DNA from: Gammaproteobacteria bacterium
Lineage (GTDB): Bacteria; Pseudomonadota; Gammaproteobacteria; Steroidobacterales; Steroidobacteraceae
Reading direction: 5' to 3'
Length of the DNA stretch: 64,000 nt
NCBI GenBank assembly: GCA_013289615.1
Contig: JABCZO010000017.1
Coordinates: 1-64,000 of the forward strand
Shown here piece after piece: positions 15,625 to 48,197 of this stretch (position 1 is the first letter of the stretch; each line of letters opens with the position of its first letter). A program made the translations under genes and the position numbers. A model generated the notes under the pieces. The model saw only the letters and a program-made list of their open reading frames with translations. It was not told the origin of the DNA and did not search any database.

Positions 15625-16605
15625 TCAGTCGTAGAGGCCTGCCTGCCTGCCGCGCTCGCGCCCCAGCGCCAGCAGAATGTCCACCGCCGGGGTCGGCACC
15701 CGGGTCAATTGTCCCAATTCGTGCACCGCGGTCACCAACGCATCGATTTCGATCGCGCGAGCGCTCTCCAGGTCCTGCAGCATCGACATCTTGTGGCCGG
15801 TCGCCAGTCCTGCGGCCTCAAGCCGGCGCTCGATCATTGCCTCGGGAATGTCGAGCCCCAGCGCCAGCGCGACGTTGCGGCATTCCTGCATCACCGCAAT
15901 GCAGACAGCGCGCAGTCCCGCCTCGCTGGTGATCCGATCGAGCGTGGCGAGCGTCAGCAGGCTGATCGGATTGAAGCAGGCGTTGCCCCAGAGCTTGAGC
16001 CAGATGTTCCAGCGCAGATTGGCGCGTATCGGCGCCTCGAAGCCCGCTTCGACCAGCGTGTGGGCGAGCGCCTGCACCCGGCCGGACATGCTGCCGTCGG
16101 GCTCGCCGATGGTAAAGCGCTTGAATTCATGGTGCTCGATGATGCCGGGAGCTACGACGGCGCAGGCCGGATCCACCACGCAACCGATGGCGCGTCCAGG
16201 CCCGATTGCGTTCCACTGGCGGGCATCGCGATCCACCGAATCCAGGTGTGTGCCCTCGAGCGCGCCGCCCGAGCGATAGAAATACCACCATGGGATGCCG
16301 TTCATTGCGGTGACGACGCAGGTTTCCGGCCCGAGCAGCGGCGCAAAGCGCTCGCACTGCTGCCATGCCTGGTGCGCCTTGAGTGCGCAGATGACCACAT
16401 CCTGCGGGCCGAAGTCGGACGGCTGATCGCTCGCCGCCACGTACGCGGTCTTCTGCCGACCGCCGATCCGCAGTCGCAGGCCGTCGTTGCGGATCGAGCG
16501 CAGGTGCTCGCCGCGGGCAATGACGCAGACCTCGTTGCCCGAGAGTGCGAGCTCAACCGCGAGGTAACCGCCGATGGCTCCGGCACCAAACACGCATAGT
16601 TTCAT
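15625..16605 (-). CDS. PanE/ApbA-family reductase (possible oxalyl-CoA reductase), copy 1
   Basis: 326 residues. Rossmann start MKLCVFGAGAIGGYLAVELALSG, then ALKAHQAW and AMNGIPWWYFYRSGG, and the C-terminal helical domain with KLWGNACFNPISLLT and GHKMSMLQDLES. The family includes ketopantoate reductase, but in Methylobacterium extorquens a member called PanE2 reduces oxalyl-CoA to glyoxylate. Here two paralogues flank an Frc-containing gene set, so the oxalyl-CoA role is favoured over pantothenate synthesis (inference). Its stop is 67 bp from the start of the amine-oxidase gene; the acyl-CoA synthetase gene lies upstream on the same strand. Confidence 0.88.
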   Translation of the reverse strand: MKLCVFGAGAIGGYLAVELALSGNEVCVIARGEHLRSIRNDGLRLRIGGRQKTAYVAASDQPSDFGPQDVVICALKAHQAWQQCERFAPLLGPETCVVTAMNGIPWWYFYRSGGALEGTHLDSVDRDARQWNAIGPGRAIGCVVDPACAVVAPGIIEHHEFKRFTIGEPDGSMSGRVQALAHTLVEAGFEAPIRANLRWNIWLKLWGNACFNPISLLTLATLDRITSEAGLRAVCIAVMQECRNVALALGLDIPEAMIERRLEAAGLATGHKMSMLQDLESARAIEIDALVTAVHELGQLTRVPTPAVDILLALGRERGRQAGLYD

Positions 16606-16710: not shown

Positions 16711-18849
16711 TCAGGGCGCGGGAATCAGGCCGGCGCCGCGCGCCCAGCGATACTTGGCACCCAGTACGGCGACCGGTATCTCGGTCGAATAGGCGTAGGC
16801 AGGAATGCCGTGCTGGTACAGGTACTCCGCCGCCTCCTCGACTTCGACGTCACCGGCGAGCGAGGCGACCACCGGTTTCTCGATCCCCCTGGCGCGCATC
16901 TCGGCGACTACTTCGACCATCAGGCGCGCAAATACCATCGGTGGGGTGATGATCGTGTGCCAGTAACCGAGGATCAGCGCATGAATGCGTGCATCCTCGA
17001 GGCCCAGTCGCACCGTGTTCTGATAGGTGGTCGGCGGCTCGCCCCCGGTGATATCGACCGGATTGCCGGCCGCGCCGAACGGCGGAATGAACTTTCGGAA
17101 CGCCGCGTCGAGGTCCGGCGGCATCGCCATCAGCGTCAGCGCGTTGTCGACGCAGGCATCGGACAGCAGCACGCCGGATCCGCCCGCGCCGGTGATGATG
17201 ACGACGTTGTTGCCCTTCGGAGTCGGCAGCACCGGAATGCCGCGCGCGAACTCGAGCAGATCGCGCAGCGAGCGCGCCCGAATGACGCCGGACTGGCGGA
17301 ACACGTCCTCGTAGATCTTGTCGTTGCCCGCCAGCGCGCCGGTGTGCGAGCTGGCCGCGCGCGCACCCATGCTGGTGCGTCCGGCTTTGAGCACCACGAC
17401 TGGCTTTTTCTTCGAGACACGCTTGGCGACTTCGGCAAAGGCACGGCCGTCCTTCAGGTCCTCGCAGTGCTGGGCGATGATTTGCGTGTTGTCATCCTGT
17501 TCGAAGAACGTCAGCAGATCGTCCTCGTCGATGTCCGACTTGTTGCCGAGGCCGACTATCGCCGACACCCCCATCTTGGCCGAGCGCGAGAACCCGATGA
17601 TCGCCATACCGATGCCGCCCGACTGCGACGACAGGGCGGCCGAGCCCTTGACGTCATAGGCGGTGCAGAACGTGGCACAAAGATTCTTCGGCGTGTAGTA
17701 GAAGCCATAGATGTTCGGCCCCATCAGGCGGACGTCATATTTGCGGGCGATCGCCACCAGTTCATCCTGACCGGCGACATTACCGGTTTCGGCAAAGCCC
17801 GACGGGATCAGCACCGCGCCGGGGATTTTCTTCTCGCCTACCTCTCTGAGCGCCTGGGCGACGAATTTGGCCGGAATGGCGAATACCGCCACGTCGATCA
17901 CGCCCGGCACATCCTTGACGCTCTTGTAGGCCTTCTTGCCCATGATCGAATCGGCACTGGGATGAATCGGATAGATCGCGCCCTGGTAGCCGCCGCTGAT
18001 CAGATTCTTCATCACCGAATTGCCGATCTTGCCGCTCTCGTTCGACGCTCCGATTACGGCCACCGCATCCGGTTTCATGATCCGGTTCATCTGCCGGATG
18101 ATGTCCTCTTTTTTCGGCCGGTAGCGCGGCGCAGGGGGCGTGAAGTCGAGCACAATGCGCACATCGGCGGCGACGGCGCTATCCCTGGTCGCGAACACCG
18201 GGTTCAGATCGAGTTCCGATATCTCCGGAAAGTCGGCGACCAGTCGCGAGACCTTTTCAATCATGGTCGCGAGCGAATCGCGATCCACAGGATCGGTGCC
18301 GCGCACCCCGCGCAGTATTTCTGCGGCCGCGATGCCATCCAGCATCGACAGCGCGTCTTCCCGGGTGGCAGGTGCCAGACGGAAGGTGACGTCCTTTAGC
18401 ACCTCCACCAGGATGCCGCCCAGACCAAACGCCACCAGTTTTCCAAAGGCAGGGTCGGTCACCGCGCCAATGATGACTTCCTGGCCGCCGCCGAGCATCT
18501 GCTGCACCTGCACGCCGTCGATGCTCGCCTTCGGGTCGTAGCGGCGGGCGTTGGCGACGATGCTGGCGAACGCCTCCGCGGCCTGCTGCGCGTTCTTGAC
18601 GCCGACCACGACGCCGCCGGCCTCGGTCTTGTGCAGGATCTGGGGTGATACGATTTTCATCACCACCGGATAGCCGATGGCGCTGGCAAGCGTTGCTGCC
18701 CCGGCGCCGTCGTTCGCTACGCCTTCCTTCGGCACCGCGATGCCGTAGGCGTCGCATATTCCCTTGGCTTCCGGAGCCGTCAGTGCCTTGCGTCCCGCCG
18801 CCTTTGCCTGATCGAGTACTTTTCGAACCGAAGCTTTATCAGGTTCCAT
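16711..18849 (-). CDS. ADP-forming acyl-CoA synthetase (fused alpha/beta)
   Basis: About 712 residues. An N-terminal ATP-grasp half (1 to about 225; YPVVMKIVSPQILHKTEAGGVVVGV) precedes a CoA-binding domain (AVAVIGASNESGKIGNSVMKNL) and the succinyl-CoA-ligase-like domain carrying the phospho-histidine loop SSHTGALAG. Such NDP-forming synthetases interconvert acid + ATP + CoA with acyl-CoA + ADP + Pi. Substrate is inferred to be a small carboxylate because the gene follows frc. ATG at 18847-18849 has GGGAAT upstream on this strand; an alternative ATG lies seven codons upstream. Confidence 0.9.
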   Translation of the reverse strand: MEPDKASVRKVLDQAKAAGRKALTAPEAKGICDAYGIAVPKEGVANDGAGAATLASAIGYPVVMKIVSPQILHKTEAGGVVVGVKNAQQAAEAFASIVANARRYDPKASIDGVQVQQMLGGGQEVIIGAVTDPAFGKLVAFGLGGILVEVLKDVTFRLAPATREDALSMLDGIAAAEILRGVRGTDPVDRDSLATMIEKVSRLVADFPEISELDLNPVFATRDSAVAADVRIVLDFTPPAPRYRPKKEDIIRQMNRIMKPDAVAVIGASNESGKIGNSVMKNLISGGYQGAIYPIHPSADSIMGKKAYKSVKDVPGVIDVAVFAIPAKFVAQALREVGEKKIPGAVLIPSGFAETGNVAGQDELVAIARKYDVRLMGPNIYGFYYTPKNLCATFCTAYDVKGSAALSSQSGGIGMAIIGFSRSAKMGVSAIVGLGNKSDIDEDDLLTFFEQDDNTQIIAQHCEDLKDGRAFAEVAKRVSKKKPVVVLKAGRTSMGARAASSHTGALAGNDKIYEDVFRQSGVIRARSLRDLLEFARGIPVLPTPKGNNVVIITGAGGSGVLLSDACVDNALTLMAMPPDLDAAFRKFIPPFGAAGNPVDITGGEPPTTYQNTVRLGLEDARIHALILGYWHTIITPPMVFARLMVEVVAEMRARGIEKPVVASLAGDVEVEEAAEYLYQHGIPAYAYSTEIPVAVLGAKYRWARGAGLIPAP

Positions 18850-18922: not shown

Positions 18923-20170
18923 CTAAATTACGTTTTCAGCCCGCAGGGCTTCGATCTCGGTGGCGCTCAGGCCGAGCTCCGCCAGCACCTCATCGGTGTG
19001 TTCGCCGAGCAGCGGTGAGGACCTGACCTCGGTGGGGCTGTCCGAAAGCTTGATCGGGTTACCGACCGACAGATATTTGCCGCGGGTCGGATGGTCCACC
19101 TCGACGATAGTGCCAGTGGCGCGCAGCGAGGGCTCCGCAGCCAGTTCCTCCATCGACAGGATCGGGCCGCAGGGAATATCGTGCTGATTGAACTCGTCCA
19201 TGGCCTCGAACTTGGTCTTGGTCATGGTCCACTTCTCGACCGCGCCGAAAATCTCCATCAGCCGCGGCAAGCGCGCGCCTGGCGTCGCGTAGTCGGGATC
19301 GGTGATCCACTCCGGCTTGCCGATGACGTTGCAGATCTCCTTCCAAACCGGCGCCTGGGTAATGAAATAAAGATAGGCGTTAGGATCGGTCTCCCATCCC
19401 TTGCACTTGATGATCCAGCCGGGCTGGCCGCCGCCGGAGGCGTTACCGGCGCGCGGCACCGCGGAGCCAAACTTGCCTTTGGGATATTGCGGGTATTCCT
19501 TCATGACCTTGGTGCGGGCCAGGCGCTGCTGGTCGCGCAGCTTGACGCGGCACAGGTTCAAGACCCCGTCCTGCATCGCCGCCTGTACCCGCTGGCCACG
19601 GCCGCTGCTCTTGCGCTGGTAGAGCGCGCAGACGATGCCAAGCGCCAGGTGCAGGCCGGTGCCACTGTCGCCGATCTGCGCACCGGTGACCAGCGGCGGC
19701 CCGTCGTCAAAGCCGGTGGTCGATGCTGCGCCACCGGCGCACTGGGCGACGTTTTCGTAGACCTTGCAGTCCTCGTACGGTCCGGGGCCGAAGCCCTTGA
19801 TCGACGCGACGATCATCTTCGGATTGAGCTGCTGGATGCGCTCCCAGGTAAAGCCCATCCGATCGAGGGCGCCAGGCGCAAAATTCTCAACCAGCACATC
19901 GCAATGCCTGACCAGCTTCTCGAGCACCGCCTTGCCATTCTTGCTTTTGGTGTCGAGCGTGATCGAGCGCTTGTTATGGTTCAACATCGTGAAGTACAGG
20001 CTGTCCACGTCCGGAATATCGCGCAGCTGCTCGCGCGTGATATCGCCGGCGCCCGCGCGCTCCACTTTGATGACATCGGCGCCGAACCAGGCCAGCAGCT
20101 GCGTGCAGGTCGGACCCGACTGCACGTGCGTGAAGTCGAGTATGCGCACGCCATCCAATGCCTTCGCCAT
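18923..20170 (-). CDS. frc: Formyl-CoA:oxalate CoA-transferase
   Basis: 415 residues, strongly similar throughout to Oxalobacter Frc as I remember it: [77 protein letters not shown], the catalytic Asp168 in GDSGTG, and the glycine loop SGGGQPGW over the active site. It is a class III CoA-transferase that moves CoA from formyl-CoA to oxalate. An AGGAGA Shine-Dalgarno sits 6-7 nt upstream of the ATG. It lies 20 bp after the ThDP enzyme gene, the position occupied by the partner of oxc in oxalate-degrading operons. Confidence 0.93.
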
Positions 20171-20190
20171 CCGAGAGTCTCCTACTGGCC

Positions 20191-21954
20191 TTATTTGTAC
20201 ATCGTCTGGTTCTTGGTGCCGGGCGCATATTCGCGCGGGTCCACCCAGATGTTGATGACCGCCGAGCGACCCAGGCGATGCACCGATTCGCGCGCGCGCT
20301 GCAGGGCAGGGGCAATCTGCGCCGGGTCGCGGACCTCTTCGCCGTAGCCGCCCAGCATTTCGGCGAACTTGCCGAACGGCACGTCGCCCAGCAGGTTGCC
20401 GACATTGCCGCGTTCCTCGCCGTATTTCGCGAGCTGCCCATAGCGGATCTGATTCATCGCCGAGTTGTTGCCGATGACCGCGATGTAGGGCACGCCGAAT
20501 CGATTCGCGGTCTCCATGTCGAAGCTGGTCATGCCGAAGGAACCGTCGCCGTAGTAACAGAGCACTTCCTTGCTCGGATGGGCGAGCCCGGCGGCGATCG
20601 CGAATCCGGTACCAACGCCGAGCGAGCCGAGGGCACCGGGATCCATCCACTGGCCCGGCGCGCGCGGACGCACGGCCTGCGCCGAGATCGTCACCACATC
20701 GCCGCCGTCACCGATATATATGGTGTTGTCGGCGAGGAATTCGTTGAGCTCATAGGCGACGCGGTACGGGTGGATCGGTACCGAGTTGGACTTGAACAGC
20801 GGCATCAGCTTTTCAGTGGCCGCGGCTTCCGCATCGGTGAGCTTCTTCATCCACTGCCGGCGCGCCTGCCGCTTGTCCTGCTTGAGGCGCCCGGAGGCCG
20901 CCTGCAGCACCGCCCCGAGGATTGCCCCGGGATCACCAACCAGCCCGAGATCGATGTCGCGGTTCTTGCCGACGGTGCGGTAGTCCATGTCGATCTGCAC
21001 CAGCTTGAGCTTGGTGCTGATACGCCGGCCGTAGCCCATGCGAAAATCGAATGGCGTGCCGACGATGACGATGACGTCGGCATCCGAGAACGCGCTGCCG
21101 CGGGTTCGATCGAAGTGGTGCGGGTCGCCCGGAGGCAGCAGCCCGCGGCTGCCGCCATTGAAGTAGCCCGGGATGTCCAGCCCGCGCAGCAGGGCGATCG
21201 CTTCCTCGTGGCCGCGTGCCGACCACACCTGCTGGCCGTAGAGGATCGCGGGTCGTTCGGAATTGACCAGGATGTCGGCCAGCTTTTCGATGTCGCGCGG
21301 ATCCCCGATGGATCGGGTCGAGGCGCGGTAGTGCCCCGGCTTTGGAATGATCGCCTTGGTGAGATCGACCTCGCGATCGAGCACATCGCGCGGTATCTCG
21401 AGATACACCGGACCGGTGGCGCCGTTGAACGCCTCGCGTGCCGCCATCGAGATCATGTCGGCCACGCGTTCGGTGCTGGGCACCGAGGCGGCGAACTTGG
21501 TGATCGGTTGCAGCAGCTCGACATGCGGCAGGTCCTGCAGCGAACCCATCCTGTGCTGCGTCAGTGCCCCCTGGCCGCCGATATGCAATACCGGGCTCTC
21601 GGAGCGAAATGCGGTGGCGATTCCTGTCATCGCATTGGTGCAGCCCGGGCCCGCGGTGGTGACGACGCAGCCGAGCTTGCCGGTTTGCCGGGCATAGCCG
21701 TCGGCGGCATGCGCGGCGACCTGTTCGTGGCGCACGTCGATGATACGGATGCCCTCGTCGATGCAGCCGTCGTAGATGTCGATGATGTGGCCGCCGCACA
21801 GCGTGAAGATGGTGTCGACGCCTTCGTTCTTGAGCGCCTTGGCCACCAGGTGCCCGCCGGAGACAACCGCGGCGTCGCGGCTCTTGGGCTGCAAGGTGTT
21901 GTCCGCGGTCGTGGTGGCGGGCGTAGTCGCTGCTGCCGAGGATGCGGGGGTCAT
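20191..21954 (-). CDS. Thiamine-diphosphate enzyme, 2-hydroxyacyl-CoA lyase/acetolactate-synthase-like
   Basis: 587 residues. The activating Glu (about 77) lies in [16 protein letters not shown]; ThDP binding is [19 protein letters not shown]...NNSAMNQ. The segment [15 protein letters not shown] resembles human HACL1 rather than Oxc, which has a Tyr-Glu pair there, and the active-site GGIYKG of Oxc is absent. The slot beside frc predicts a formyl-CoA-producing enzyme, so it may cleave oxalyl-CoA or another 2-hydroxyacyl-CoA. Glyoxylate carboligase is less likely because that enzyme lacks the conserved Glu. Start at ATG 21952-21954 with GGGAGA upstream; a longer frame exists. Confidence 0.85.
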
Positions 21955-22018
21955 GGTGTCTCCCAGGTGGTCGACCGGTTCAAAGGGACGCCGCGCTTGA
22001 GGGCGCGCGGCGCGACTA

Positions 22019-23341
22019 TCAGTTGCCCGACGCGGGCTGCATCGGCGCGCGCCCGCTCGCGTTCGCTTCGTTCTGCACCTCGGCACGCGTGGCGGCAAAA
22101 TGCCTGATGCGCATCGGTTTCAGCACGAACAGGCCGATTGCGGCGGCCAGCAGGTTGAAGCTCATGGCAATCATGAAGACCGTATGCCAGCCCATGGATA
22201 GGGCGAGCGCGGCGGCAAACGGCACCAGCAGAGAGCCCATGCCCTTGGCGGTGTAGAGCATGCCGGCATTGGCGGCGGCAAACTTGGCGCCGAAGGTGTC
22301 GCCCTGAGTCGCCGGGAACAGGCTGTAGATTTCGCCGAATACGCCGAAATACAGGGCGGTGACCAGCACGAACAGCACCGGGTTGCTGCCGACCTGACTG
22401 AGCGTGAACAAGGCACCTGCGCCGATCACAAACGCGATCGCCATCGTGTTCTCACGGCCGATGTGATCCGATACCCAGCCGAAGAACGGACGGCCGACGC
22501 CGTCGAAGATACGATTGAGGAAAATCGCGAAGGTCAGCGCCGGCATCGCCATTCCCAGCAGCGCCACCGGGATCTTATCGATCTTCAGATCCTTGGCGAT
22601 CGGCGCCATCGACGCGGCCATCATCAGGCCGCCCGACGCCACCAGCACGAACATCAGGTACAACACGTAGAACACCGGCGAGCGCAGCACCTGCGTCGGC
22701 GTAAAGCTGCGTGCGGCCTGGTTGGGTCGCGGGGCTGCCGCTACCAGCTGCGGCGGCGCGGCCAGCAGGCCAAAGGCCATCACGATGACGATGAGGCCCT
22801 GCAGGATGCCGAAGAACAGGAACGCATGCTGGTAGCCGTCGGAGGTGATCATGTTGGAGATCGGAATGATTGTGGCCGCGGCGCCGGCGCCAAAGCCGGC
22901 AGCGGTAATCCCGGCCGCAAGACCGCGACGCCCCGGGAACCATTTCAGTGCGTTGCCGACGCAAGTGCCATAGACCGAACCGCAACCGATGCCGCCGATC
23001 GCCGCGGCGACATACAGCAGCGCCAGCGAATCCGCCACCGAATTGATCATCCAGGCGATTGCCACCAGAATGCCACCGCCTATCACGACCGGACGCGGGC
23101 CAAAGCGGTCGACCAGATAGCCTTCCACCGGTACCAGCCAGGTTTCGATCAGCACGAACATCGTGAAGGCGACCTGGATCGCTGGACGTCCCCAGTGAAA
23201 TTTGGCATCGATAGGATTGACGAACAGCGTCCAGCCATATTGCAGATTGGCAACCGACGCCATGCAGATGACGCCGAGGATGAGCTGGACCCAGGGGTTC
23301 GCAAAAATTGAAGTGGATGGTGATTTCGACACGGCAACCAT
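22019..23341 (-). CDS. OxlT-like MFS oxalate/formate antiporter family protein
   Basis: 440 residues, twelve helices. Similar to Oxalobacter OxlT throughout (LQYGWTLFVNPI, YLVDRFGPRPVVIGGG, GCGSVYGT, KWFPGRRGLAAGITAAGFG). The two charges that bind oxalate in OxlT, Arg272 and Lys355, appear conserved as Arg284 in FDGVGRPFFGWVSD and Lys366 in MLYTAKGMGS. It probably imports oxalate or a related dicarboxylate in exchange for formate. It is the first gene of the leftward OxlT-ThDP-Frc-synthetase unit, with a GGAGAAG Shine-Dalgarno before the ATG at 23339-23341. Confidence 0.9.
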   Translation of the reverse strand: MVAVSKSPSTSIFANPWVQLILGVICMASVANLQYGWTLFVNPIDAKFHWGRPAIQVAFTMFVLIETWLVPVEGYLVDRFGPRPVVIGGGILVAIAWMINSVADSLALLYVAAAIGGIGCGSVYGTCVGNALKWFPGRRGLAAGITAAGFGAGAAATIIPISNMITSDGYQHAFLFFGILQGLIVIVMAFGLLAAPPQLVAAAPRPNQAARSFTPTQVLRSPVFYVLYLMFVLVASGGLMMAASMAPIAKDLKIDKIPVALLGMAMPALTFAIFLNRIFDGVGRPFFGWVSDHIGRENTMAIAFVIGAGALFTLSQVGSNPVLFVLVTALYFGVFGEIYSLFPATQGDTFGAKFAAANAGMLYTAKGMGSLLVPFAAALALSMGWHTVFMIAMSFNLLAAAIGLFVLKPMRIRHFAATRAEVQNEANASGRAPMQPASGN

Positions 23342-23790: not shown

Positions 23791-23941
23791 GATGCTGGAG
23801 TTTTCGATTGACGCCGGCGTGGCCAGCGCCATTTCAATCATTCCACCGTCGATACTCAAACGCGCGGCGCGCCGACGCACGCCGCCGATGCGTAGCATCA
23901 GCGGCCCTGTGTTGCTTGCCAGCGGAGCGCGGGTCGGATGA
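23791..23941 (+). CDS. Possible small leader ORF ahead of the GntR regulator
   Basis: 50-codon-long frame starting MLEFSIDAGVASAIS and ending with a TGA that overlaps the GntR ATG (ATGA, 23938-23941). It lies downstream of the predicted promoter, so it would be in the leader of the regulator mRNA. The hydrophobic N-terminal half gives way to a basic tail; no family recognised. It could be a coupling leader peptide or chance. Confidence 0.3.
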
Positions 23942-24657
23942 ACACGGTGGTAATGGTCGGTCAGAACCGAAGCATGGCGGGACCGCTGGCGCTGGCGCCG
24001 CTGAATTCCGTCAGCCTGCGCGATCAGGCGTATGCGCTGCTCAAGGACGCCATCGCCGCTACCGACATCTACGGCGAACGGCGGCCGTTGCGCCTCGACG
24101 AACGGCAACTGACGCAGGCGCTCGGCGTGAGCCGCACGCCGGTGCGCGAAGCGTTGTCGATCCTGGAGCAGGAAGGGTTTGTCCGGACGGTTCCGCGCCG
24201 TGGGATCTTCATCGTCCGCAAGTCCAAGCGCGAAATCATCGAGATGATCCAGATGTGGGCCGCGCTCGAGGGCATGTCGGCGCGCCTGGCGACGCTGCAT
24301 GCGCTGGACTCCGAGATCGGCAAGCTGCGCCACCTGTTCGACGAGTTCGAGAATTCGCCGCCGTCGGCGCACATTAGCGAATATTCGGACGCCAACATCG
24401 CGTTTCACCAGATGATCATCCGCCTGGGCGGTTCGCAGCTGATCGCCGACGCCACCAAGAACCTGTTCATCCACGTGCGGGCGATCCGCAAGCTCACGAT
24501 CTCGCAGGACAACCGCGCGGCGCGCTCGATCGTTGATCATCTGAACATCATCGAGGCGCTGGAACGGCGCGACACCGAACTGGCCGAGCGGCTCACTCGC
24601 CAGCACACGCTCGGTCTGGCGACGCACGTCGAACGCTATTGCGATTTTCTCGACTAG
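23938..24657 (+). CDS. GntR-family regulator, FCD subfamily
   Basis: 239 residues. N-terminal winged helix (about 25-95; LDERQLTQALGVSRTPVREALSILEQEGFVRTVPRRGIFIV) and a C-terminal FCD ligand domain with metal-ligand candidates in DANIAFHQM, DHLNIIEAL and TRQHTLG. FCD regulators of this type sense small organic acids, often of the pathway they control. Divergent from the OxlT-Frc operon, so oxalate, formate or a 2-hydroxyacid is the likely ligand (inference). The ATG at 23938 is coupled to a small upstream frame; a later Met (MAGPLALAP) is an alternative start. Confidence 0.9.
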   Translation: MNTVVMVGQNRSMAGPLALAPLNSVSLRDQAYALLKDAIAATDIYGERRPLRLDERQLTQALGVSRTPVREALSILEQEGFVRTVPRRGIFIVRKSKREIIEMIQMWAALEGMSARLATLHALDSEIGKLRHLFDEFENSPPSAHISEYSDANIAFHQMIIRLGGSQLIADATKNLFIHVRAIRKLTISQDNRAARSIVDHLNIIEALERRDTELAERLTRQHTLGLATHVERYCDFLD

Positions 24658-24680: not shown

Positions 24681-25673
24681 CTAGCGCGAACGTCGCGCGC
24701 GCGCGTTTCGATGGCGCGCGCGCGGCGACAGCAGTTGCGGCGGCGCGCCCGATAGCTCGAAGTGCACCAGCCGCTCGATCAGCGCCGCACCTTCGCGCAG
24801 CAGATAGTCCTTGAAGGCCACTGCCACCGGCGGCAGGCGCTTGGTGCGGTTGTGCACCAGATACCAATTGAGCATGGCCGGAAAACCCTGCACGTCGAGC
24901 ACCACCAGGTTACCGGCCAGCAGATCGAGGCCGATCGTGTGGGCGGAAAGAAACGCGATGCCCATGCCGGCCACTACCGCCTGCTTGATGGTTTCGGTAC
25001 TTTGAATCTCCATGCCGATGGTCAGCCGGTTGGTCTGGCGCCCGAACACCTCGCACATCGAATTCCAGGTATCCGATCCCTGCTCGCGTTGCACGAAGCG
25101 CTCGCGGTTCAACGCCGCGCGCGGAATCTGCCGTTTTCCGGCCAGAGGATGGCTGGGGGCGGCCACGATCACGTAGGGATGAGGCGCGAACGCCACGGCG
25201 ATCGTGTCCAGGTCGCTCGGCAGCCGCACCATCACGGCAAGGTCGGTCAGGTTCTCGGCCAGCTGACGCAGCAGCCCTTCGCGATTGTGTACGGTGAGAT
25301 TGAACGCCACGCCGGGATGGCTGGCGCCGAACTCGGCCAGCACGCGCGGAAAGAAATAATCCCCGGCGCTGATGACTGCGACATTGAGGCGGCCACCGGT
25401 CACCCCCTTGAGGCGCGCCAGCGTGTCTTCCGCCTCCTTCAACCGCTGCGTGATCCCTTTAGCACACTGCAGCATCTCTTCGCCGGCCGGCGTCAGGTAG
25501 TTCTTGCGACCGACCCGCTCGAACAACGGCAGGCCGGCACAGGAAGTGAATTGCCTGATCTGGGTCGACACCGCGGGTTGCGATAAATGCAGTTCTTCGG
25601 CCGCGCGCGAGAAGTTCATGTGGCGCGCCGCCGCCGCGAACACCCGCAGATGGCGCAGCGTCAGGTTCTTCAT
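24681..25673 (-). CDS. LysR-family transcriptional regulator
   Basis: 330 residues. The N-terminal HTH MKNLTLRHLRVFAAAARHMNFSRAAEELHLSQPAVSTQIRQF is of the CbbR-like branch, followed by a periplasmic-binding-protein-like effector domain. It ends in a short Arg-rich tail (RHRNARARR). It is divergent from the PanE-FAH-Hyi-GlxR-GckA unit starting at 25925 and probably activates it in response to a C2/C3 acid (inference). The start at ATG 25671-25673 fits the family; the frame is open further upstream but reads through the shared promoter region. Confidence 0.92.
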   Translation of the reverse strand: MKNLTLRHLRVFAAAARHMNFSRAAEELHLSQPAVSTQIRQFTSCAGLPLFERVGRKNYLTPAGEEMLQCAKGITQRLKEAEDTLARLKGVTGGRLNVAVISAGDYFFPRVLAEFGASHPGVAFNLTVHNREGLLRQLAENLTDLAVMVRLPSDLDTIAVAFAPHPYVIVAAPSHPLAGKRQIPRAALNRERFVQREQGSDTWNSMCEVFGRQTNRLTIGMEIQSTETIKQAVVAGMGIAFLSAHTIGLDLLAGNLVVLDVQGFPAMLNWYLVHNRTKRLPPVAVAFKDYLLREGAALIERLVHFELSGAPPQLLSPRARHRNARARRSR

Positions 25674-25924
25674 CGGCGACAGCGTACGCGCGCCTGAGGT
25701 ATATTTAAAATCGTATGGTCGCGATAGATAGCTTTGACTTTTCCTGGGGTAGCGCCGGGCGTAGGCTTGCTGCCAGTTGTCCGCCGCGGGCGGCGCACTG
25801 ACGGGCTTGCCGTAGACTATGCTGCTGTAAGGGGGAGCGCCGCTCGGGCGCCGCGCGATTTCGCGCATGAGGTCATCGCCACTGCTACAACAATAGTAAC
25901 GGCCCGCTGGGCAGGTAGAGAAGA

Positions 25925-26917
25925 ATGAAGATCGCGATCATCGGCGCCGGCGCCATCGGTGGCTACGTCGGCGTGAAACTGGCGCTGGCCGGCGAACACG
26001 TTACCTGCATGGTACGCGGGGCGAACCTGGAGGCAATACGCCGCAGCGGCTTGAAACTGATCATGAGCGACGGCAGCGAGCATGTTGCCGCGGATGTGAA
26101 GGCGAGCGACGATTACACTGCCGTGGGCCCGCAGGACCTCGTGATCCTGGCGGTGAAGGCACACCAGGTCGAGGCGGTTGCCAACGATGTGCCGACACTG
26201 TTTGGCCCCGACACCGTCGTGGTGACGATGCAGAACGGCATTCCCTACTGGTATTTCCACCGGCACGGCGGTGCACTGGCCGGTACCGTGGTGCGCAGCG
26301 TCGATCCCGACGGCGTCATCGGCCGGAAGATTCCCGCCGAGCGCATCATCGGCTGTGTGGTATATCCGGCAGCGGAGCTGATCGCGCCGGGCGTCGTCAG
26401 GCACATCGAAGGCGAGCGATTTCCGCTCGGGGACCTGGACGGTTCGAACAGCGCGCGGGTGACGCGGGTCGCCGAATGCTTTAATCGCGCGGGCTTCAAA
26501 TCCCCGGTGCTCGACAACATTCGGGCCGAGATCTGGCTCAAGGCCTGGGGCAATCTGACCTTCAATCCGATCAGTGCGCTCACGCGCGCAATGCTGGTCG
26601 ATATCTGTCAGTTTCCGCCCACGCGGGCGCTGGCTGAGGCGATGATGACCGAGGCGCAGGCGGTGGCTGGCAAACTGGGTATCAGCTTTCGTGTGCCACT
26701 GGAGAAGCGCATCGCCGGTGCGGAAAAAGTCGGCAAGCACAAGACCTCCATGCTGCAGGACATCGAGGCCGAACGACCGCCGGAAATCGAGGCGCTGGTC
26801 GGATCGGTGGTGGAACTGGGCCGACTGACGCACACCCCGACACCCAACATCGACGCGGTGTACGCACTGGCTGGCCTGCTGGCACGCACGATTGCGGCCA
26901 ACCGTCGCGGGACATGA
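25925..26917 (+). CDS. PanE/ApbA-family reductase (possible oxalyl-CoA reductase), copy 2
   Basis: 330 residues. NADP-binding MKIAIIGAGAIGGYVGVKLALAGEHVTCM, then AVKAHQVEA, TMQNGIPYWYFHRHGG, WLKAWGNLTFNPIS and KHKTSMLQDIEAERPPEIEAL. Clearly paralogous to the reductase at 15625-16605. As the first gene of a unit that ends in glycerate metabolism, a glyoxylate-producing oxalyl-CoA reductase (the PanE2 activity known from Methylobacterium) is the best-fitting role, against true ketopantoate reduction. The ATG is preceded by AGAGAAGA. Confidence 0.9.
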   Translation: MKIAIIGAGAIGGYVGVKLALAGEHVTCMVRGANLEAIRRSGLKLIMSDGSEHVAADVKASDDYTAVGPQDLVILAVKAHQVEAVANDVPTLFGPDTVVVTMQNGIPYWYFHRHGGALAGTVVRSVDPDGVIGRKIPAERIIGCVVYPAAELIAPGVVRHIEGERFPLGDLDGSNSARVTRVAECFNRAGFKSPVLDNIRAEIWLKAWGNLTFNPISALTRAMLVDICQFPPTRALAEAMMTEAQAVAGKLGISFRVPLEKRIAGAEKVGKHKTSMLQDIEAERPPEIEALVGSVVELGRLTHTPTPNIDAVYALAGLLARTIAANRRGT

Positions 26918-26921
26918 GCCG

Positions 26922-27716
26922 GTGACGCACTGGGCGCGTTTCAGGGCCGCGGGCGATCGTGCCGGCTTCGGCGTGCTGGACCAGCACGGAATCATCGAAT
27001 ATCAGGGCAACCTGTTTGAGCACCCGACGCCAACGGGCAGCATCGTCCCCAATGGCGCCTTTACACTGCAGTGTCCCTGCGCACCCTCCAAGATCATCGC
27101 GCTGTGGAATAACTTTCGTGCGCTCGGCTTAAAGCTTGGCAAGCCGGTGCCCTTGCATCCGCTGTTTCTGATCAAGCCGGCGAGCTCGGTTGCCGGTCCG
27201 GGTGAGCCGATACGGCGGCCGCTCGCCTACAGCGGCAAGATTGCGTATGAGGGCGAACTCGGCATCGTGATCGGTAAGCGCTGCAAGGATGTACCGGTGA
27301 GCGGTGCGGGCGATTGCATATTTGGCTACACCTGCGTCAACGACGTTACCGCCGGCGAGGTGCTCAACGAGAATGTCGACTTTGTGCAGTGGTGCAGGGC
27401 CAAGAGCTACGATACCTTCGGCTGCCTTGGACCGGTGATCGCCGCAGACCTGGACTGGAGCAGCGCGCGCGTCGTCACCCGCGTAGACGGTGTTGAGCGT
27501 CAGAACTTCCCGCTTTCCGACATGATCTTTTCGCCGCTGGAGCTGGTGAGCCAGATCTCGCACGACATGTCGCTGCTGCCGGGCGATGTGATCGCCTGCG
27601 GCACGTCGCTGGGCATCGGGTCGATCAAGGACGGCGCCAGCGTCGCGATCACGATCGACGGCATCGGCTCGCTGGTGAACACACTGCAAGCATGCCGAAA
27701 TTCAACGCCAATCTGA
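26922..27716 (+). CDS. Fumarylacetoacetate hydrolase family protein
   Basis: 264 residues with the FAH C-terminal fold: PSKIIALWNNF, HPLFLIKPASSVAGPGEPI, YEGELGIVIGKRC (metal Glu pair), FGYTCVNDVTAGE, CRAKSYDTFGCLGP, and MSLLPGDVIACGTSLGIGSIKDG. Relatives hydrolyse acylpyruvates, isomerise or decarboxylate oxaloacetate-type compounds; the exact reaction is unknown. The GTG at 26922 was chosen because it follows the upstream stop by 4 bp. Its end overlaps the hydroxypyruvate isomerase gene by 25 nt, indicating tight co-translation. Confidence 0.88.
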   Translation: MTHWARFRAAGDRAGFGVLDQHGIIEYQGNLFEHPTPTGSIVPNGAFTLQCPCAPSKIIALWNNFRALGLKLGKPVPLHPLFLIKPASSVAGPGEPIRRPLAYSGKIAYEGELGIVIGKRCKDVPVSGAGDCIFGYTCVNDVTAGEVLNENVDFVQWCRAKSYDTFGCLGPVIAADLDWSSARVVTRVDGVERQNFPLSDMIFSPLELVSQISHDMSLLPGDVIACGTSLGIGSIKDGASVAITIDGIGSLVNTLQACRNSTPI

Positions 27717-28468
27717 CAATGCTGTTCAACGAGCTCGATTTCCTGGAGCGCTTCGGGGCGGCAAGAGACGCGGGCTTTCGGGGCGTGGAGTACCTGTTTC
27801 CATACGCCTATCACAAGCACGATCTGGTCGAGCGGCTGCAGCTCAACGGGCTCACGCAGGTACTGCATAATCTGCCGGCCGGCGACTGGGCCGCCGGCGA
27901 ACGCGGTATCGCCTGCCTGCCCGAGCGCATCGGTGAATTTCAGGACGGGGTCGGCACCGCGATCGAGTATGCGCAGGCGCTGCAATGCACTCAGCTCAAC
28001 TGCCTGGCAGGCATTGCGCCCCGAGGGCTCGACCCAGCGACGCTGCACGACACACTGGTTCGCAACCTGCGCTTCGCCGCGACTGAGCTCGGGCGCGTCG
28101 GCATCCGATTGCTGGTGGAGCCGTGCAATACGCGCGACCTGCCAGGATTTTTTCTGAACCGCTCGCAGCAGGCGCTCGATCTCATCGATGCCGTCGGCTC
28201 GGACAATCTGTTCCTGCAATACGACATCTACCATATGCAGGTGATGGAAGGGAACCTGGCGTCGAGCATAGAGCGTCACCTGAACCGGATCCGTCATCTG
28301 CAGATCGCCGACAATCCCGGCCGCGGGGAACCGGGCACCGGCGAGATCAATTATCCATTCCTGTTCGCATTCATCGACCGGCTTGGCTATGGCGGCTGGA
28401 TCGGTTGCGAATACAAGCCAGTCAAAGGTACCGTGCAGGGACTGGGGTGGATCAAGCCCTATCTGTGA
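27692..28468 (+). CDS. hyi: Hydroxypyruvate isomerase
   Basis: 258 residues, TIM barrel of the AP-endonuclease-2 superfamily. MPKFNANLTMLFNE, LVEPCNTRDLPGFFLN, FLQYDIYHMQ and IGCEYKPVKGT are the E. coli Hyi signatures including the metal-binding Glu residues. It interconverts hydroxypyruvate and tartronate semialdehyde. Found next to tartronate semialdehyde reductase and glycerate kinase, completing the glyoxylate-to-glycerate route except for the carboligase. Confidence 0.94.
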   Translation: MPKFNANLTMLFNELDFLERFGAARDAGFRGVEYLFPYAYHKHDLVERLQLNGLTQVLHNLPAGDWAAGERGIACLPERIGEFQDGVGTAIEYAQALQCTQLNCLAGIAPRGLDPATLHDTLVRNLRFAATELGRVGIRLLVEPCNTRDLPGFFLNRSQQALDLIDAVGSDNLFLQYDIYHMQVMEGNLASSIERHLNRIRHLQIADNPGRGEPGTGEINYPFLFAFIDRLGYGGWIGCEYKPVKGTVQGLGWIKPYL

Positions 28469-28482
28469 CGTCCGGAAGCAGT

Positions 28483-29376
28483 ATGAGCAAAGTCGGTTTC
28501 GTCGGCTTAGGGGTAATGGGCAGACCGATGGCAGCGCATCTGCGCACCGCCTCGCACGAGCTGTATGTTCATGACCATAAGCCCGCTCCGCAATCACTGG
28601 TTGCGCAGGGGGCAGTCGACTGCGCATCGGGCCAAGCGGTGGCCGAGCGCGCCGACATCATCATCACGATGCTGCCCGATACCCCGCACGTGGCGGCGGC
28701 GTTATTCGGCGCCGCCGGCGTCGCCGGGGGCCTGTCGGCCGGCAAGATCGTGGTGGACATGAGTTCCATCTCTCCGATCGAGACCAGGGAATTTGCAAAA
28801 AGGATCAATTCGCTGGGTTGCCAGTACCTGGACGCACCGGTGTCGGGCGGTGAGGTCGGTGCCAAAGCCGCGAGCCTGACTATCATGGTCGGGGGACCGG
28901 AGGATGCCTTTGCGAAGGTGCGGCCGCTGTTCGAACTGATGGGCAAGAACATCACGCGGGTCGGCGGCACCGGCGATGGGCAGACCTGCAAGGTGGCAAA
29001 TCAGATCATCGTCGCGCTGACGATCGAGGCGGTTGGCGAAGCGCTGCTGTTCGCCTCCAGGATGGGCGCGGATGCCAGCAAGGTGCGCCAGGCGCTTATG
29101 GGCGGCTTTGCGTCCTCACGGGTCCTGGAAGTGCATGGCGAGCGGATGATCAAGCGCAGTTTCGATCCGGGCTTCCGCATTGAGCTGCACCAGAAGGATT
29201 TGAATCTGGCGCTGACTGCGGCGCGCGAAGTGGGGCTTTCGCTGCCCAATACCGCGAGTACCCAGCAGCTGTTCAACGCTTGCGCGGCAAACGGCGGCAA
29301 GGCCTGGGATCATTCGGCCATGGTGCGTGCACTCGAGTTGCTGGCGCGATACCAGATTGGAGCAGCGCCGCCGTGA
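28483..29376 (+). CDS. glxR: 2-hydroxy-3-oxopropionate (tartronate semialdehyde) reductase
   Basis: 297 residues of the beta-hydroxyacid dehydrogenase family: NAD(P)-binding GFVGLGVMGRPMAAHL, substrate motif DAPVSGGEVGAKAASLTIMVGG, and catalytic Lys in GDGQTCKVANQIIVA. Context with hyi and glycerate kinase supports tartronate semialdehyde as substrate, giving D-glycerate. The ATG at 28483 is 14 bp after hyi; its TGA overlaps the GTG of the next gene. Confidence 0.92.
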   Translation: MSKVGFVGLGVMGRPMAAHLRTASHELYVHDHKPAPQSLVAQGAVDCASGQAVAERADIIITMLPDTPHVAAALFGAAGVAGGLSAGKIVVDMSSISPIETREFAKRINSLGCQYLDAPVSGGEVGAKAASLTIMVGGPEDAFAKVRPLFELMGKNITRVGGTGDGQTCKVANQIIVALTIEAVGEALLFASRMGADASKVRQALMGGFASSRVLEVHGERMIKRSFDPGFRIELHQKDLNLALTAAREVGLSLPNTASTQQLFNACAANGGKAWDHSAMVRALELLARYQIGAAPP

Positions 29377-30665
29377 ACCCGGACAGCGGGCCGCGCGCGC
29401 TGCTGCGGGCGATGTTTGACGCTGCGATCGACGCCGCGCAACCCGCGCTGTGCGTGCCACGCCACCTGCCTTCGCCTCCGCGCGGCCGGCTGGTGGTGAT
29501 CGGCGCCGGCAAGGCATCGGCGGCAATGGCACGTGCGGTCGAAGACAACTGGCGCGGCGAGCTGTCGGGAGTCGTGGTAACGCGCTATGGCTACAGCGTG
29601 CCCTGCCAGCGCATCGACATCGTCGAGGCAGCGCATCCGGTGCCGGACGCGGCCAGCGTGGCCGCATCGGAACGCATCCTGGCAGCGGTGCGGGACCTGC
29701 GACCGGAGGATCTGGTGCTGTGCCTGATCTCCGGCGGCGCCTCCGCATTGCTGGTGCGTCCGCTTCCAGGCCTGACGCTCGAGGACAAGCAGGCGGTCAA
29801 CCGTGCGCTGCTGAAGTCCGGCGCCACGATCCGCGAGATGAACTGCGTGCGCCGGCATCTGTCCGGGATCAAGGGTGGACGGCTGGGCGCGGCCTGTCAC
29901 CCGGCGAAGCTAATCACCCTGCTGATCTCCGACGTGCCGGGGGACAACCCGGTGGATATCGGTTCCGGCCCGACCGTGGCCGATCCTACCACCTGCGCCG
30001 ACGCACTGGTGATCCTGCGGCGATACGCGATCGAGGTGTCGCCGCAGGTGCGCGAAACTCTGGAAAGCGGCCGCGGCGAGACACCGAAGCCCGGCGATGC
30101 ACGGCTGGCCGGCGCCGAGACGCGGATCATCGCGACCCCGCAGATGGCGCTGGAGGCCGCCGCCGAGGTCGCAAACCGCGCGGGCGTCGCGGCGCTGATC
30201 CTCAGCGACAGCATCGAGGGTGAGGCGCGCGAGGTCGGCAAAGTCATGGCGGCTATCGCGCGCCAGGTGGTAACGCATGGAGAACCGTGCGCCGCTCCCT
30301 GCGTGCTGCTGTCGGGCGGCGAGACCACGGTAACCGTGCACGGAGACGGCCGTGGCGGCCGCAATGTCGAGTTCCTGCTGGCATTGGGGATCGCGCTTGA
30401 TCGACAGGCCGGTGTCTACGCGATTGCCGGGGATACCGATGGCGTCGACGGCACCGAAGAAGTAGCCGGCGCGCATTTGGCTCCCGACAGCCTGGCGCGC
30501 GCCCTGGCCAAGGGCATTAACGCCCGCAATAGCCTAGCTAATAATGACGGGCACAGCTTCTTCGAAGCCATCGGCGATGCCGTGATCACCGGACCGACGC
30601 TCACCAACGTGAACGATTTCAGGGCGATTTTCATTACCGAAAGCGGCGCGCCGGCCGCAGGATGA
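29373..30665 (+). CDS. Glycerate 2-kinase (GckA/TtuD, MOFRL family)
   Basis: 430 residues. VIGAGKASAAMARAVE, LCLISGGASALLVRPLPGLTLEDKQ, REMNCVRRHLSGIKGGRL and the C-terminal MOFRL block VLLSGGETTVTVHGDGRGGRNVEFLLAL with GDTDGVDGTEEVAGA. The family phosphorylates glycerate to 2-phosphoglycerate; older annotations call it hydroxypyruvate reductase TtuD. The GTG start overlaps the glxR stop (GTGA), so translation is coupled. Confidence 0.93.
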   Translation: MNPDSGPRALLRAMFDAAIDAAQPALCVPRHLPSPPRGRLVVIGAGKASAAMARAVEDNWRGELSGVVVTRYGYSVPCQRIDIVEAAHPVPDAASVAASERILAAVRDLRPEDLVLCLISGGASALLVRPLPGLTLEDKQAVNRALLKSGATIREMNCVRRHLSGIKGGRLGAACHPAKLITLLISDVPGDNPVDIGSGPTVADPTTCADALVILRRYAIEVSPQVRETLESGRGETPKPGDARLAGAETRIIATPQMALEAAAEVANRAGVAALILSDSIEGEAREVGKVMAAIARQVVTHGEPCAAPCVLLSGGETTVTVHGDGRGGRNVEFLLALGIALDRQAGVYAIAGDTDGVDGTEEVAGAHLAPDSLARALAKGINARNSLANNDGHSFFEAIGDAVITGPTLTNVNDFRAIFITESGAPAAG

Positions 30666-44470: not shown

Positions 44471-46348
44471 GTGGCCTTGTCGACGGAATCGCATCATTAC
44501 GCTCGACTGACCATGGCTCAGGCGCTCGTGAGGTATCTCGCGGCGCAGAAAATCGTCACCGACGGTTTCGAGCAGCAGTTGTTTGGCGGCGTGTTTGCCA
44601 TCTTTGGCCACGGAAACGTGGTTTGCCTGGGCGAGGCTCTTTACGAAGCGCGGGCGGTGCTGCCGACCTGGCGTGGGCAGAACGAGCAATCGATGGGATT
44701 CGCTGCGGCCGCCTATGCGAAGGCTCATCGCCGGCGGCGGATTTGTGTGGCGACCTCGTCGATTGGCCCAGGTGCCACGAACATGGTGACTGCGGCGGCG
44801 GTGGCGCATGCGAATCGATTGCCGGTATTGTTCTTGTCGGGCGACGTCTATCATCACCGCCTTCCGCATCCGGTTCTCCAGCAAGTCGAGCACTTTGGCG
44901 ACCCTACCGTATCGGTCAACGATGCGTTCAAGCCGGTCACGCGATACTGGGATCGCGTCACTCATCCCGCACAGCTGCTGCAGTCGCTCCCGGCCGCTAT
45001 AGCCACCATGCTCGATCCGGCAGATTGCGGCCCGGCGTTTCTGGGTCTGCCGCAGGACGTTCAAGGGATCGCCTACGATTTTCCCGTTGCTTTTTTTGCG
45101 CCTCACGTTCACCGCATCCGCAGGACGCGTCCCGATCTCCAGGAGGTAGCCGCCGCTGCCGCGCGCATTCAGCGTGCGCAACGCCCGGTCATCATCGCCG
45201 GGGGTGGGGTTCACTATTCCATGGCAACGAATACGCTCGGCGAGCTCGCCGCGCGCCACAACGTTCCCGTGGTGGAGACCATCGCCGGTATGTCGACGCT
45301 GGTGCACGCGCATCCGTGCAACTACGGAATTGTCGGTGTAACCGGCACCGAATGCGCCAATGTCATCTGCGGCGAGGCCGACGTCATCATTGCCGTGGGA
45401 ACTCGCCTGCAGGATTTCACCACCGGCTCCTGGACAGTATTCAGTGAAACTGCCCAGGTCATCGGACTCAATGCGGCGCGCTTCGATGCCACCAAGCACC
45501 TCGCGCTGCCGATCGTCGGCGATGCGCACGAGGGTCTACAGGCACTGGACGCGGCACTTGCGCACTGGCGTGCGGATTCGCTCTGGACGTCGCGCGCGAA
45601 CACGCTGCGAGATCAATGGAATAGCCGACCGGAAACACGCGGCAAGACACCGGACGGGTTTCCCGCCTATGCGCAGATCGTCAACGCCGTGAACCGTCTG
45701 TGCGCGGCAGCTGACCGCGTAGTCACCGCGGCAGGCGGCCTGCCGGGTGAGATTTCGGCAAACTGGCGAGCGCGCTCGGTTGCCTCGGTCGATATCGAAT
45801 ACGGCTATTCGTGCATGGGCTACGAGATCGCGGGAGGATGGGGCGCGCGTATCGCGCAGATGGAAAGCGCCGATGGCGGAGACACCATCGTATTCGTCGG
45901 CGATGGTTCGTATCTGCTGCTCAATTCGGACGTTTATTCGAGCGTATTGTCCGGCCGTAAGCTCATCATCGTGCTGTGCGACAATGGTGGATTTGCCGTC
46001 ATCGACAGACTTCAACGCAACACCGGCAACGTCGCATTCAACAACTTCATCGCCGATTGCCAGTGGGATCGTGCCCCTTTTGCTGTCGACTTCGCGATGC
46101 ATGCCCGCTCGATGGGAGCACACTCCGAATCGGTGGACAGCATTGCGGGGTTCGAGGCGGCATTCATGCGGGCCAAGAGCTCGGATCGTACCTACGTGAT
46201 CGACGTCAAAGTCGACCCATACTCATGGAGCGAGGGCGGCAGTGCCTGGTGGGAAGTTGGCACGCCTGAGGTGAGCAACCGCCCCGAGGTGCTGGCCGCC
46301 GCCTCGGAATGGAACCTCGGGCGCGTGCGGCAGCGCCGAGGCGTTTGA
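44471..46348 (+). CDS. iolD: 3D-(3,5/4)-trihydroxycyclohexane-1,2-dione hydrolase
   Basis: 625 residues, ThDP-dependent. GHGNVVCLGEALYEA, TWRGQNEQSMGFAAAAYAKA with the cofactor-activating Glu, ATSSIGPGATNMVTAAAVAH and the ThDP motif GDGSYLLLNSDVYSSVLSGRKLIIVLCDNGGF are IolD signatures. It opens the six-membered ring dione to 5-deoxy-D-glucuronate, the ring-cleavage step of inositol catabolism. GTG start behind GGGGGAC. First gene of iolDCBJ; a 13-14 bp operator lies upstream. Confidence 0.95.
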   Translation: MALSTESHHYARLTMAQALVRYLAAQKIVTDGFEQQLFGGVFAIFGHGNVVCLGEALYEARAVLPTWRGQNEQSMGFAAAAYAKAHRRRRICVATSSIGPGATNMVTAAAVAHANRLPVLFLSGDVYHHRLPHPVLQQVEHFGDPTVSVNDAFKPVTRYWDRVTHPAQLLQSLPAAIATMLDPADCGPAFLGLPQDVQGIAYDFPVAFFAPHVHRIRRTRPDLQEVAAAAARIQRAQRPVIIAGGGVHYSMATNTLGELAARHNVPVVETIAGMSTLVHAHPCNYGIVGVTGTECANVICGEADVIIAVGTRLQDFTTGSWTVFSETAQVIGLNAARFDATKHLALPIVGDAHEGLQALDAALAHWRADSLWTSRANTLRDQWNSRPETRGKTPDGFPAYAQIVNAVNRLCAAADRVVTAAGGLPGEISANWRARSVASVDIEYGYSCMGYEIAGGWGARIAQMESADGGDTIVFVGDGSYLLLNSDVYSSVLSGRKLIIVLCDNGGFAVIDRLQRNTGNVAFNNFIADCQWDRAPFAVDFAMHARSMGAHSESVDSIAGFEAAFMRAKSSDRTYVIDVKVDPYSWSEGGSAWWEVGTPEVSNRPEVLAAASEWNLGRVRQRRGV

Positions 46349-46349
46349 G

Positions 46350-48187: not shown

Positions 48188-48197
48188 GACGCTTCGC

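Follow-up and report, generated by a model that had tools for sequence, protein, structure and literature searches.

The window analysed here is a stretch of 64,000 nucleotides (positions 1 to 64,000 of contig JABCZO010000017.1, assembly GCA_013289615.1) from a Gammaproteobacteria bacterium of the family Steroidobacteraceae. It contains an operon-like row of minus-strand genes in which a thiamine diphosphate (ThDP) enzyme stands between an oxalate/formate antiporter and a formyl-coenzyme A (CoA):oxalate CoA-transferase, with successive gaps of 64, 20, 73 and 105 bases:

22019..23341, minus strand: oxalate/formate antiporter (OxlT) of the major facilitator superfamily (TIGR04259, 585.5 bits, cut-off 335)
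20191..21954, minus strand: ThDP enzyme of 587 amino acids, proposed non-orthologous oxalyl-CoA decarboxylase (Pfam TPP_enzyme N, M and C)
18923..20170, minus strand: formyl-CoA:oxalate CoA-transferase (Frc) of 415 amino acids (TIGR03253, 728.6 bits, cut-off 504.2)
16711..18849, minus strand: nucleoside diphosphate (NDP)-forming acyl-CoA ligase (Pfam ATP-grasp_5, Succ_CoA_lig, CoA_binding_2 and Ligase_CoA_2)
15625..16605, minus strand: ketopantoate-reductase-like protein (NF005089, 410 bits, cut-off 223)

An earlier, sequence-only reading had placed an OxlT-like gene, a ThDP enzyme and a CoA-transferase at 18923-23341 on the minus strand; this three-gene set was confirmed, and the CoA-transferase scored as a true Frc. 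The unit reaches past those limits to the ligase and the ketopantoate-reductase-like gene, and Frc starts 20 bases past the ThDP stop codon. No canonical oxalyl-CoA decarboxylase (Oxc) over cut-off was found in the source genome, which is 83% complete. We propose that the ThDP enzyme probably represents a second, non-orthologous oxalyl-CoA decarboxylase family that does the job of Oxc.

Profile searches agreed with the earlier suggestion that the ThDP enzyme is non-canonical. It missed both Oxc models, scoring 218.3 bits against TIGR03254 (more than 500 bits below the cut-off of 739.4) and 235.1 bits against PRK09259 (cut-off 557), and it lay under the cut-off of all 25 NCBIfam models shown, out of 50 matched. 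The top named model was NF004516 (PRK05858, acetolactate synthase) at 444.9 bits, short of the required 587, and the neighbours annotated for the ThDP family point, in contrast, to oxalate. Neither the acetolactate synthase model TIGR00118 (294.5 bits, cut-off 538) nor NF058623, for lyases of the AcHACL type (349.5 bits, cut-off 600), was reached. AcHACL, an actinobacterial 2-hydroxyacyl-CoA lyase, was the best phmmer match in the PDB (271 bits) and ranked first in a Foldseek comparison of the predicted structure, in which the first Oxc stood at rank 38; the prediction (predicted local distance difference test score 69.8, active-site segments below 50) was used for fold ranking alone. Sequence identity of the window protein was 34.5% to AcHACL, its closest solved relative, 24–26% to Oxc, 26% to E. 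coli IlvB and 25% to glyoxylate carboligase (Gcl).

The sequence-only reading had set a phylogeny of the protein at 20191-21954 as a test. In a FastTree analysis with Oxc, HACS, AcHACL and its relatives, acetolactate synthase, Gcl, PoxB and IolD as references, the ThDP family formed its own clade (support 0.99), separate from Oxc plus HACS (support 1.0), rather than falling inside the Oxc clade. Within the family, identity was 76–97% in Proteobacteria, 83% in one metagenome-assembled genome (MAG) titled Acidobacteria and 65–66% in Streptomyces and Nonomuraea, and all 20 aligned members shared the C-terminal tail YAPGTxxQTMYK without change. The ThDP enzyme is a member of a discrete family distinct from canonical Oxc, of which the Phyllobacterium and Streptomyces members are annotated merely as "thiamine pyrophosphate-binding protein". 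Like Oxc (TIGR03254; E. coli YfdU, 2q27; O. formigenes, 2c31; M. extorquens, 7ayg), it has the ThDP fold, Frc and OxlT neighbours and the cofactor Glu, and the complementary distribution of the two suggests a common role; the low identity, the separate clade, the model score and the replaced oxalyl contacts set it apart. A Rhodopila MAG (G308, locus L100) encodes, besides its family member, an extra ThDP protein with 517 bits against the Oxc model (cut-off 739), a score between those of Oxc and the remaining matches of that search.

Comparison of active-site residues showed that the ThDP enzyme keeps the cofactor Glu (E77) and retains AcHACL H44, T88, L127 and Q128 as H56, T100, L139 and Q140. 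The CoA-contacting R273 of AcHACL is retained as R285, a position where E. coli IlvB and Gcl have a residue other than Arg. The QDLPHVE motif reported earlier is present, an LQDxPH motif is shared with AcHACL, and a 12-residue stretch occupies the place of the Oxc NNGGIYKG. The acid/base Glu on the active-site helix of AcHACL, E493, is replaced by I503, which is Ile in 20 of 20 aligned members, and the position three residues on, the candidate Glu in human HACL2, is Gly in all 20; the Glu is retained by the three AcHACL-like proteins compared, from Methylibium, Azoarcus and Natrinema. According to PMC8760513 and PMC13327070, E493 moves a proton in the AcHACL lyase reaction, a transfer that Oxc decarboxylation does not need. 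The same papers give human HACL2 an Ile at the E493 place and a Glu three residues on, so the absent Glu alone does not exclude a lyase. Judged by these residues, the active site disfavours a lyase without excluding one. AcHACL further differs in its large lid, as described in PMC8760513, where the ThDP enzyme has a short C-terminal tail, and in that the partner genes of the ThDP enzyme serve oxalate.

When GTDB genome contigs were scanned once, 327 stretches contained a relative, and the best 80 were retained as loci. In 74 of these 80, the gene immediately downstream of the ThDP gene, in the same orientation, was Frc, and four of the six misses (L026, L027, L050 and L052) were contig ends, so the pairing of the two genes is not a matter of chance. 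Other neighbours were scored within the fetched stretch as best BLAST hits (E ≤ 1e-15, at least half of the query, distant paralogs included), with many stretches ending at contig ends; on this basis a GntR regulator was found in 65 loci, OxlT in 58, a LysR regulator in 50 and a fumarylacetoacetate hydrolase (FAH) family gene in 46. CoA ligases, both kinds taken together, were found in 43 loci and ketopantoate-reductase-like genes in 38; the NDP-forming ligase of the 16711-18849 type had a best-hit match in 39 loci. A Streptomyces plasmid carries the ThDP, Frc, ligase and OFA transporter genes together, and a Phyllobacterium plasmid carries OxlT, ThDP enzyme, Frc, SucCD, a ketopantoate reductase and a regulator annotated as BhcR. 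When a tree of Frc sequences was rooted on E. coli, the Frcs of ThDP loci separated from the five sampled Frcs of Oxc loci.

In a MAG titled Acidobacteria (L099), 21.7 kb around a family member contain no gene of the neighbour panel. On a Bosea plasmid (L150, 1696-4644), a ThDP protein 35.4% identical to that of the window lies directly after a CoA-transferase gene, and this pair adjoins MmgE/PrpD and isocitrate dehydrogenase genes.

The distribution of the family was compared with that of canonical Oxc. Oxc over cut-off was present in 10 of 80 distinct family-bearing genomes (10 of 48 in a first batch, 0 of 31 in a second, and 0 of 1 for the source genome); the second batch comprised 33 genomes, of which G283 repeats G004 and G295 repeats G019, and L043 and L068 were omitted from the counts. 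In the genus of P. graminis (Paraburkholderia, 144 genomes; 8 candidates per genome scored in most genomes, in one search), Oxc was found in 105 genomes, the ThDP family in 37 and Frc in 131. The family occurred in 24 of 26 genomes with Frc and no Oxc, 13 of 105 with both Frc and Oxc, and 0 of 13 without Frc (Fisher p 8e-15 on the 131 Frc-positive genomes, kinship ignored), and all 24 genomes with the family and no Oxc carried exactly one Frc. The genus of C. pauculus (Cupriavidus, 60 genomes) gave a similar picture, with the family in 13 of 20 Oxc-negative and 1 of 40 Oxc-positive genomes (Fisher p 2e-7, kinship ignored). To a large extent, the ThDP family and canonical Oxc substitute for one another.

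Loss of the ThDP gene in place was examined in 32 genomes of the Paraburkholderia genus lacking the family, by reading a Frc locus that does not adjoin Oxc (12 + 20 loci); these were picked from the listed Frc matches and are not a random sample. GntR, Frc and LysR were retained in all 32 loci and FAH in 31, and in none was the ThDP gene intact in the interval from GntR to Frc. All but one of these genomes (G157) were Oxc-positive; the canonical Oxc locus of G113 (L145) was not counted in the 32. Six loci (L138, L160, L164, L167, L171 and L173) still held pieces of the ThDP gene at E ≤ 1e-3, each set from a different region of it, and two more (L133 and L134) held short remnants of its tail. 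A locus tree of 55 rows combined the 32 loci with 23 of the 25 ThDP-positive loci of the Paraburkholderia group, L043 and L068 being left out; it requires no fewer than 8 changes of the ThDP state and no fewer than 7 of the Oxc state.

Three strains bearing the family have been reported to degrade calcium oxalate as sole carbon source: B. kururiensis LMG19447, B. phenoliruptrix LMG22037 and B. tuberum LMG21444 (Kost et al. 2014, PMC3886118 Table 1). Matched by strain number (L044, L077 and L067, respectively), their genomes contain the ThDP gene and a single Frc, adjacent to it by coordinates, and searches of the three genomes found no Oxc over cut-off and no OxdC. OxdC was accordingly rejected as the cause of oxalate growth in these strains; it was found in 3 of 48 family-bearing genomes. 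B. graminis LMG18924 would make a fourth such strain if it is identical to C4D1M (L074).

Where canonical oxc is present, growth on oxalate depends on it, being abolished by oxc disruption in B. phytofirmans PsJN (PMC3886118) and by frc-oxc deletion in C. necator (PMC7486775). PsJN has one oxc and extra copies of the antiporter and frc (PMC3886118), gene copies that fit the class in which the ThDP gene has been lost; PsJN itself was not identified among the genomes here. That the PsJN oxc might be a ThDP-family gene was ruled out from its primers, which match canonical oxc: they had 1–3 and 0–3 mismatches to eight Paraburkholderia canonical oxc loci (L103-L110) and 5–7 to the six ThDP loci tried, with weaker matches to two other canonical loci (3 and 6 mismatches in L102, 4 and 7 in L111).

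Frc requires a source of formyl-CoA, and the presence of canonical Oxc in just 10 of the 80 family-bearing genomes points to the ThDP enzyme as that source. The most economical account makes the ThDP enzyme a non-orthologous oxalyl-CoA decarboxylase, a role that would explain where Frc obtains formyl-CoA, the tendency of the ThDP gene to be lost where Oxc is present, and oxalate use by the listed strains. In the proposed cycle, OxlT would import oxalate in exchange for formate, Frc would transfer CoA from formyl-CoA to oxalate to give oxalyl-CoA and formate, and the ThDP enzyme would convert oxalyl-CoA to formyl-CoA and CO2, closing the cycle. The NDP-forming ligase may prime the cycle or supply oxalyl-CoA, and the ketopantoate-reductase-like enzymes may divert part of the oxalyl-CoA to glyoxylate for biomass. 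A comparable arrangement is the Frc-Oxc and ApbA2 route of C. necator (Claassens et al. 2020, PMC7486775), in which Frc likewise has a ThDP decarboxylase as its neighbour and an oxalyl-CoA reductase resembling ketopantoate reductase lies close by; the ThDP enzyme there is annotated oxc, whereas that of the window belongs to the other family.

Several observations weigh against an oxalyl-CoA decarboxylase. The AcHACL CoA contacts R362 and R417 align with Ala, so CoA-ester binding is only partly supported. The oxalyl contacts of OfOxc (Y120, E121, Y483 and S553) correspond to L139, Q140, I503 and N582, in an alignment with some uncertainty near position 483 and over the tail, and the ThDP enzyme would need another way of holding the carboxylate. 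Frc might accept CoA from another donor, such as succinyl-CoA, and the oxalate phenotype is a property of the strain, not of the gene. Two loci (L078 and L099) carry the ThDP gene without an adjoining Frc. Among Oxc-positive Paraburkholderia genomes, 13 of 105 hold both enzymes; G157 (L140) keeps the locus without the ThDP gene and has no Oxc over cut-off, and G170 has Frc and neither Oxc over cut-off nor the family, the two being possibly assembly gaps or former oxalate users. The family is absent from seven of the 20 Oxc-negative Cupriavidus genomes; in two of these seven, broken Oxc genes are present. A phylogeny-corrected test was not significant (sign test p 0.25–0.5 on five independent Oxc contrasts across supported branches): the ThDP state changed opposite to Oxc in about two contrasts, the same way in none and not at all in about three, a direction that fits replacement but that the test lacks the power to confirm.

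The genes flanking the operon were annotated as follows:

23938..24657, plus strand: GntR/FCD regulator, divergent from the operon (Pfam GntR and FCD)
24681..25868, minus strand: LysR regulator, start codon uncertain (Pfam HTH_1 and LysR_substrate)
25925..26917, plus strand: second ketopantoate-reductase-like protein (NF005089, 463 bits, cut-off 223)
26892..27716, plus strand: FAH family protein (PF01557)
27692..28468, plus strand: hydroxypyruvate isomerase (Hyi; TIGR03234, 385 bits, cut-off 353)
28486..29376, plus strand: tartronate semialdehyde reductase (GlxR; TIGR01505, 393.5 bits, cut-off 341)
29280..30665, plus strand: glycerate 2-kinase-like protein, start uncertain (NF041176, 239 bits, below the cut-off of 550)

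Both ketopantoate-reductase-like genes (15625-16605 and 25925-26917), which flank the oxalate operon, are candidates for a PanE2/ApbA2-type oxalyl-CoA reductase; for the first, the model is ApbA2 of C. necator, whose gene lies close to frc-oxc (PMC7486775). Despite the presence of Hyi, GlxR and glycerate-kinase-like genes (27692-30665, plus strand), searches of the source genome, G004 (97% complete), G019 and G055 turned up no Gcl over cut-off. Farther along the plus strand, an inositol-type set (44471-49061) includes a ThDP enzyme that scores as IolD (TIGR04377, 818.7 bits, cut-off 715) and sugar-kinase-like, IolB-like and aldolase-like genes recognised by eye.

Of the two alternatives offered by the sequence-only reading, an alternative oxalyl-CoA decarboxylase gained support from the complementary distribution in two genera, in-place loss in Oxc-positive genomes and oxalate growers without Oxc over cut-off. 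The other, a formyl-CoA-driven cycle in which cleavage of a 2-hydroxyacyl-CoA by the ThDP enzyme would yield formyl-CoA plus a carbonyl compound and Frc would hand the CoA on to the next 2-hydroxyacid, was not supported and is very unlikely. AcHACL is the nearest solved structure both by sequence and by Foldseek (on a moderate model), and its H44, T88, L127 and Q128 are retained; but the Glu positions hold invariant Ile and Gly where the AcHACL-like relatives keep Glu, the lyase model falls well below its cut-off, the transporter is of the oxalate/formate type, and the gene mirrors Oxc in distribution and replaces it, which a 2-hydroxyacid cycle does not predict.

A glyoxylate carboligase or acetolactate synthase, which would condense reductase-derived glyoxylate to tartronate semialdehyde for the neighbouring Hyi, GlxR and glycerate kinase genes, would suit the four genomes without Gcl over cut-off and the acetolactate synthase name of the top-scoring NCBIfam model. 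It is nevertheless highly improbable, given that Hyi/GlxR lies near the ThDP gene in 1 of 80 loci, that Gcl has Val in place of the cofactor Glu kept as E77, and that the ThDP gene tracks Oxc. Replacement of Gcl was rejected as the main role, since the four Oxc-less, family-bearing Paraburkholderia genomes checked (G067, G082, G088 and G090), three of them from oxalate-growing strains, already carry Gcl over cut-off. Alternatively, the listed strains might use oxalate by ligase and oxalyl-CoA reductase alone, the ThDP enzyme serving another purpose. The frequency of ligase and reductase-like genes at the loci and phenotypes that are not gene-specific would allow this, yet C. necator has the reductase and still loses oxalate growth on frc-oxc deletion (PMC7486775), and loss of the ThDP gene in Oxc-positive genomes with its neighbours kept would require another cause; we consider this reading very unlikely. 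The ThDP enzyme, as an oxalyl-CoA decarboxylase, would make a formyl-CoA carbanion, and that it can add this carbanion to glyoxylate besides protonating it is a long shot. If it did, one enzyme would combine Oxc with the C–C bond-forming step that feeds tartronate semialdehyde reductase in Gcl-less genomes such as the source's, making a single-enzyme oxalate assimilation route.

The ThDP family appears to stand in for Oxc in many soil bacteria without the textbook enzyme, which would account for their ability to use oxalate for growth. Within the titles and abstract openings of open-licence literature, we found no assignment of oxalyl-CoA decarboxylation to this family, and oxc is treated as the key gene of the oxalate route in PMC10192776. 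If the family does the job of Oxc, surveys that count oxc overlook degraders carrying the ThDP family alone, which would be 24 of 144 Paraburkholderia, 13 of 60 Cupriavidus and 70 of 80 distinct family-bearing genomes. Oxalyl-CoA decarboxylation would then have arisen a second time, on a lyase-like scaffold, and formyl-CoA one-carbon chemistry would gain a new starting point; the family would also be a clear case of enzyme displacement in which remnants of the displaced gene are still visible.

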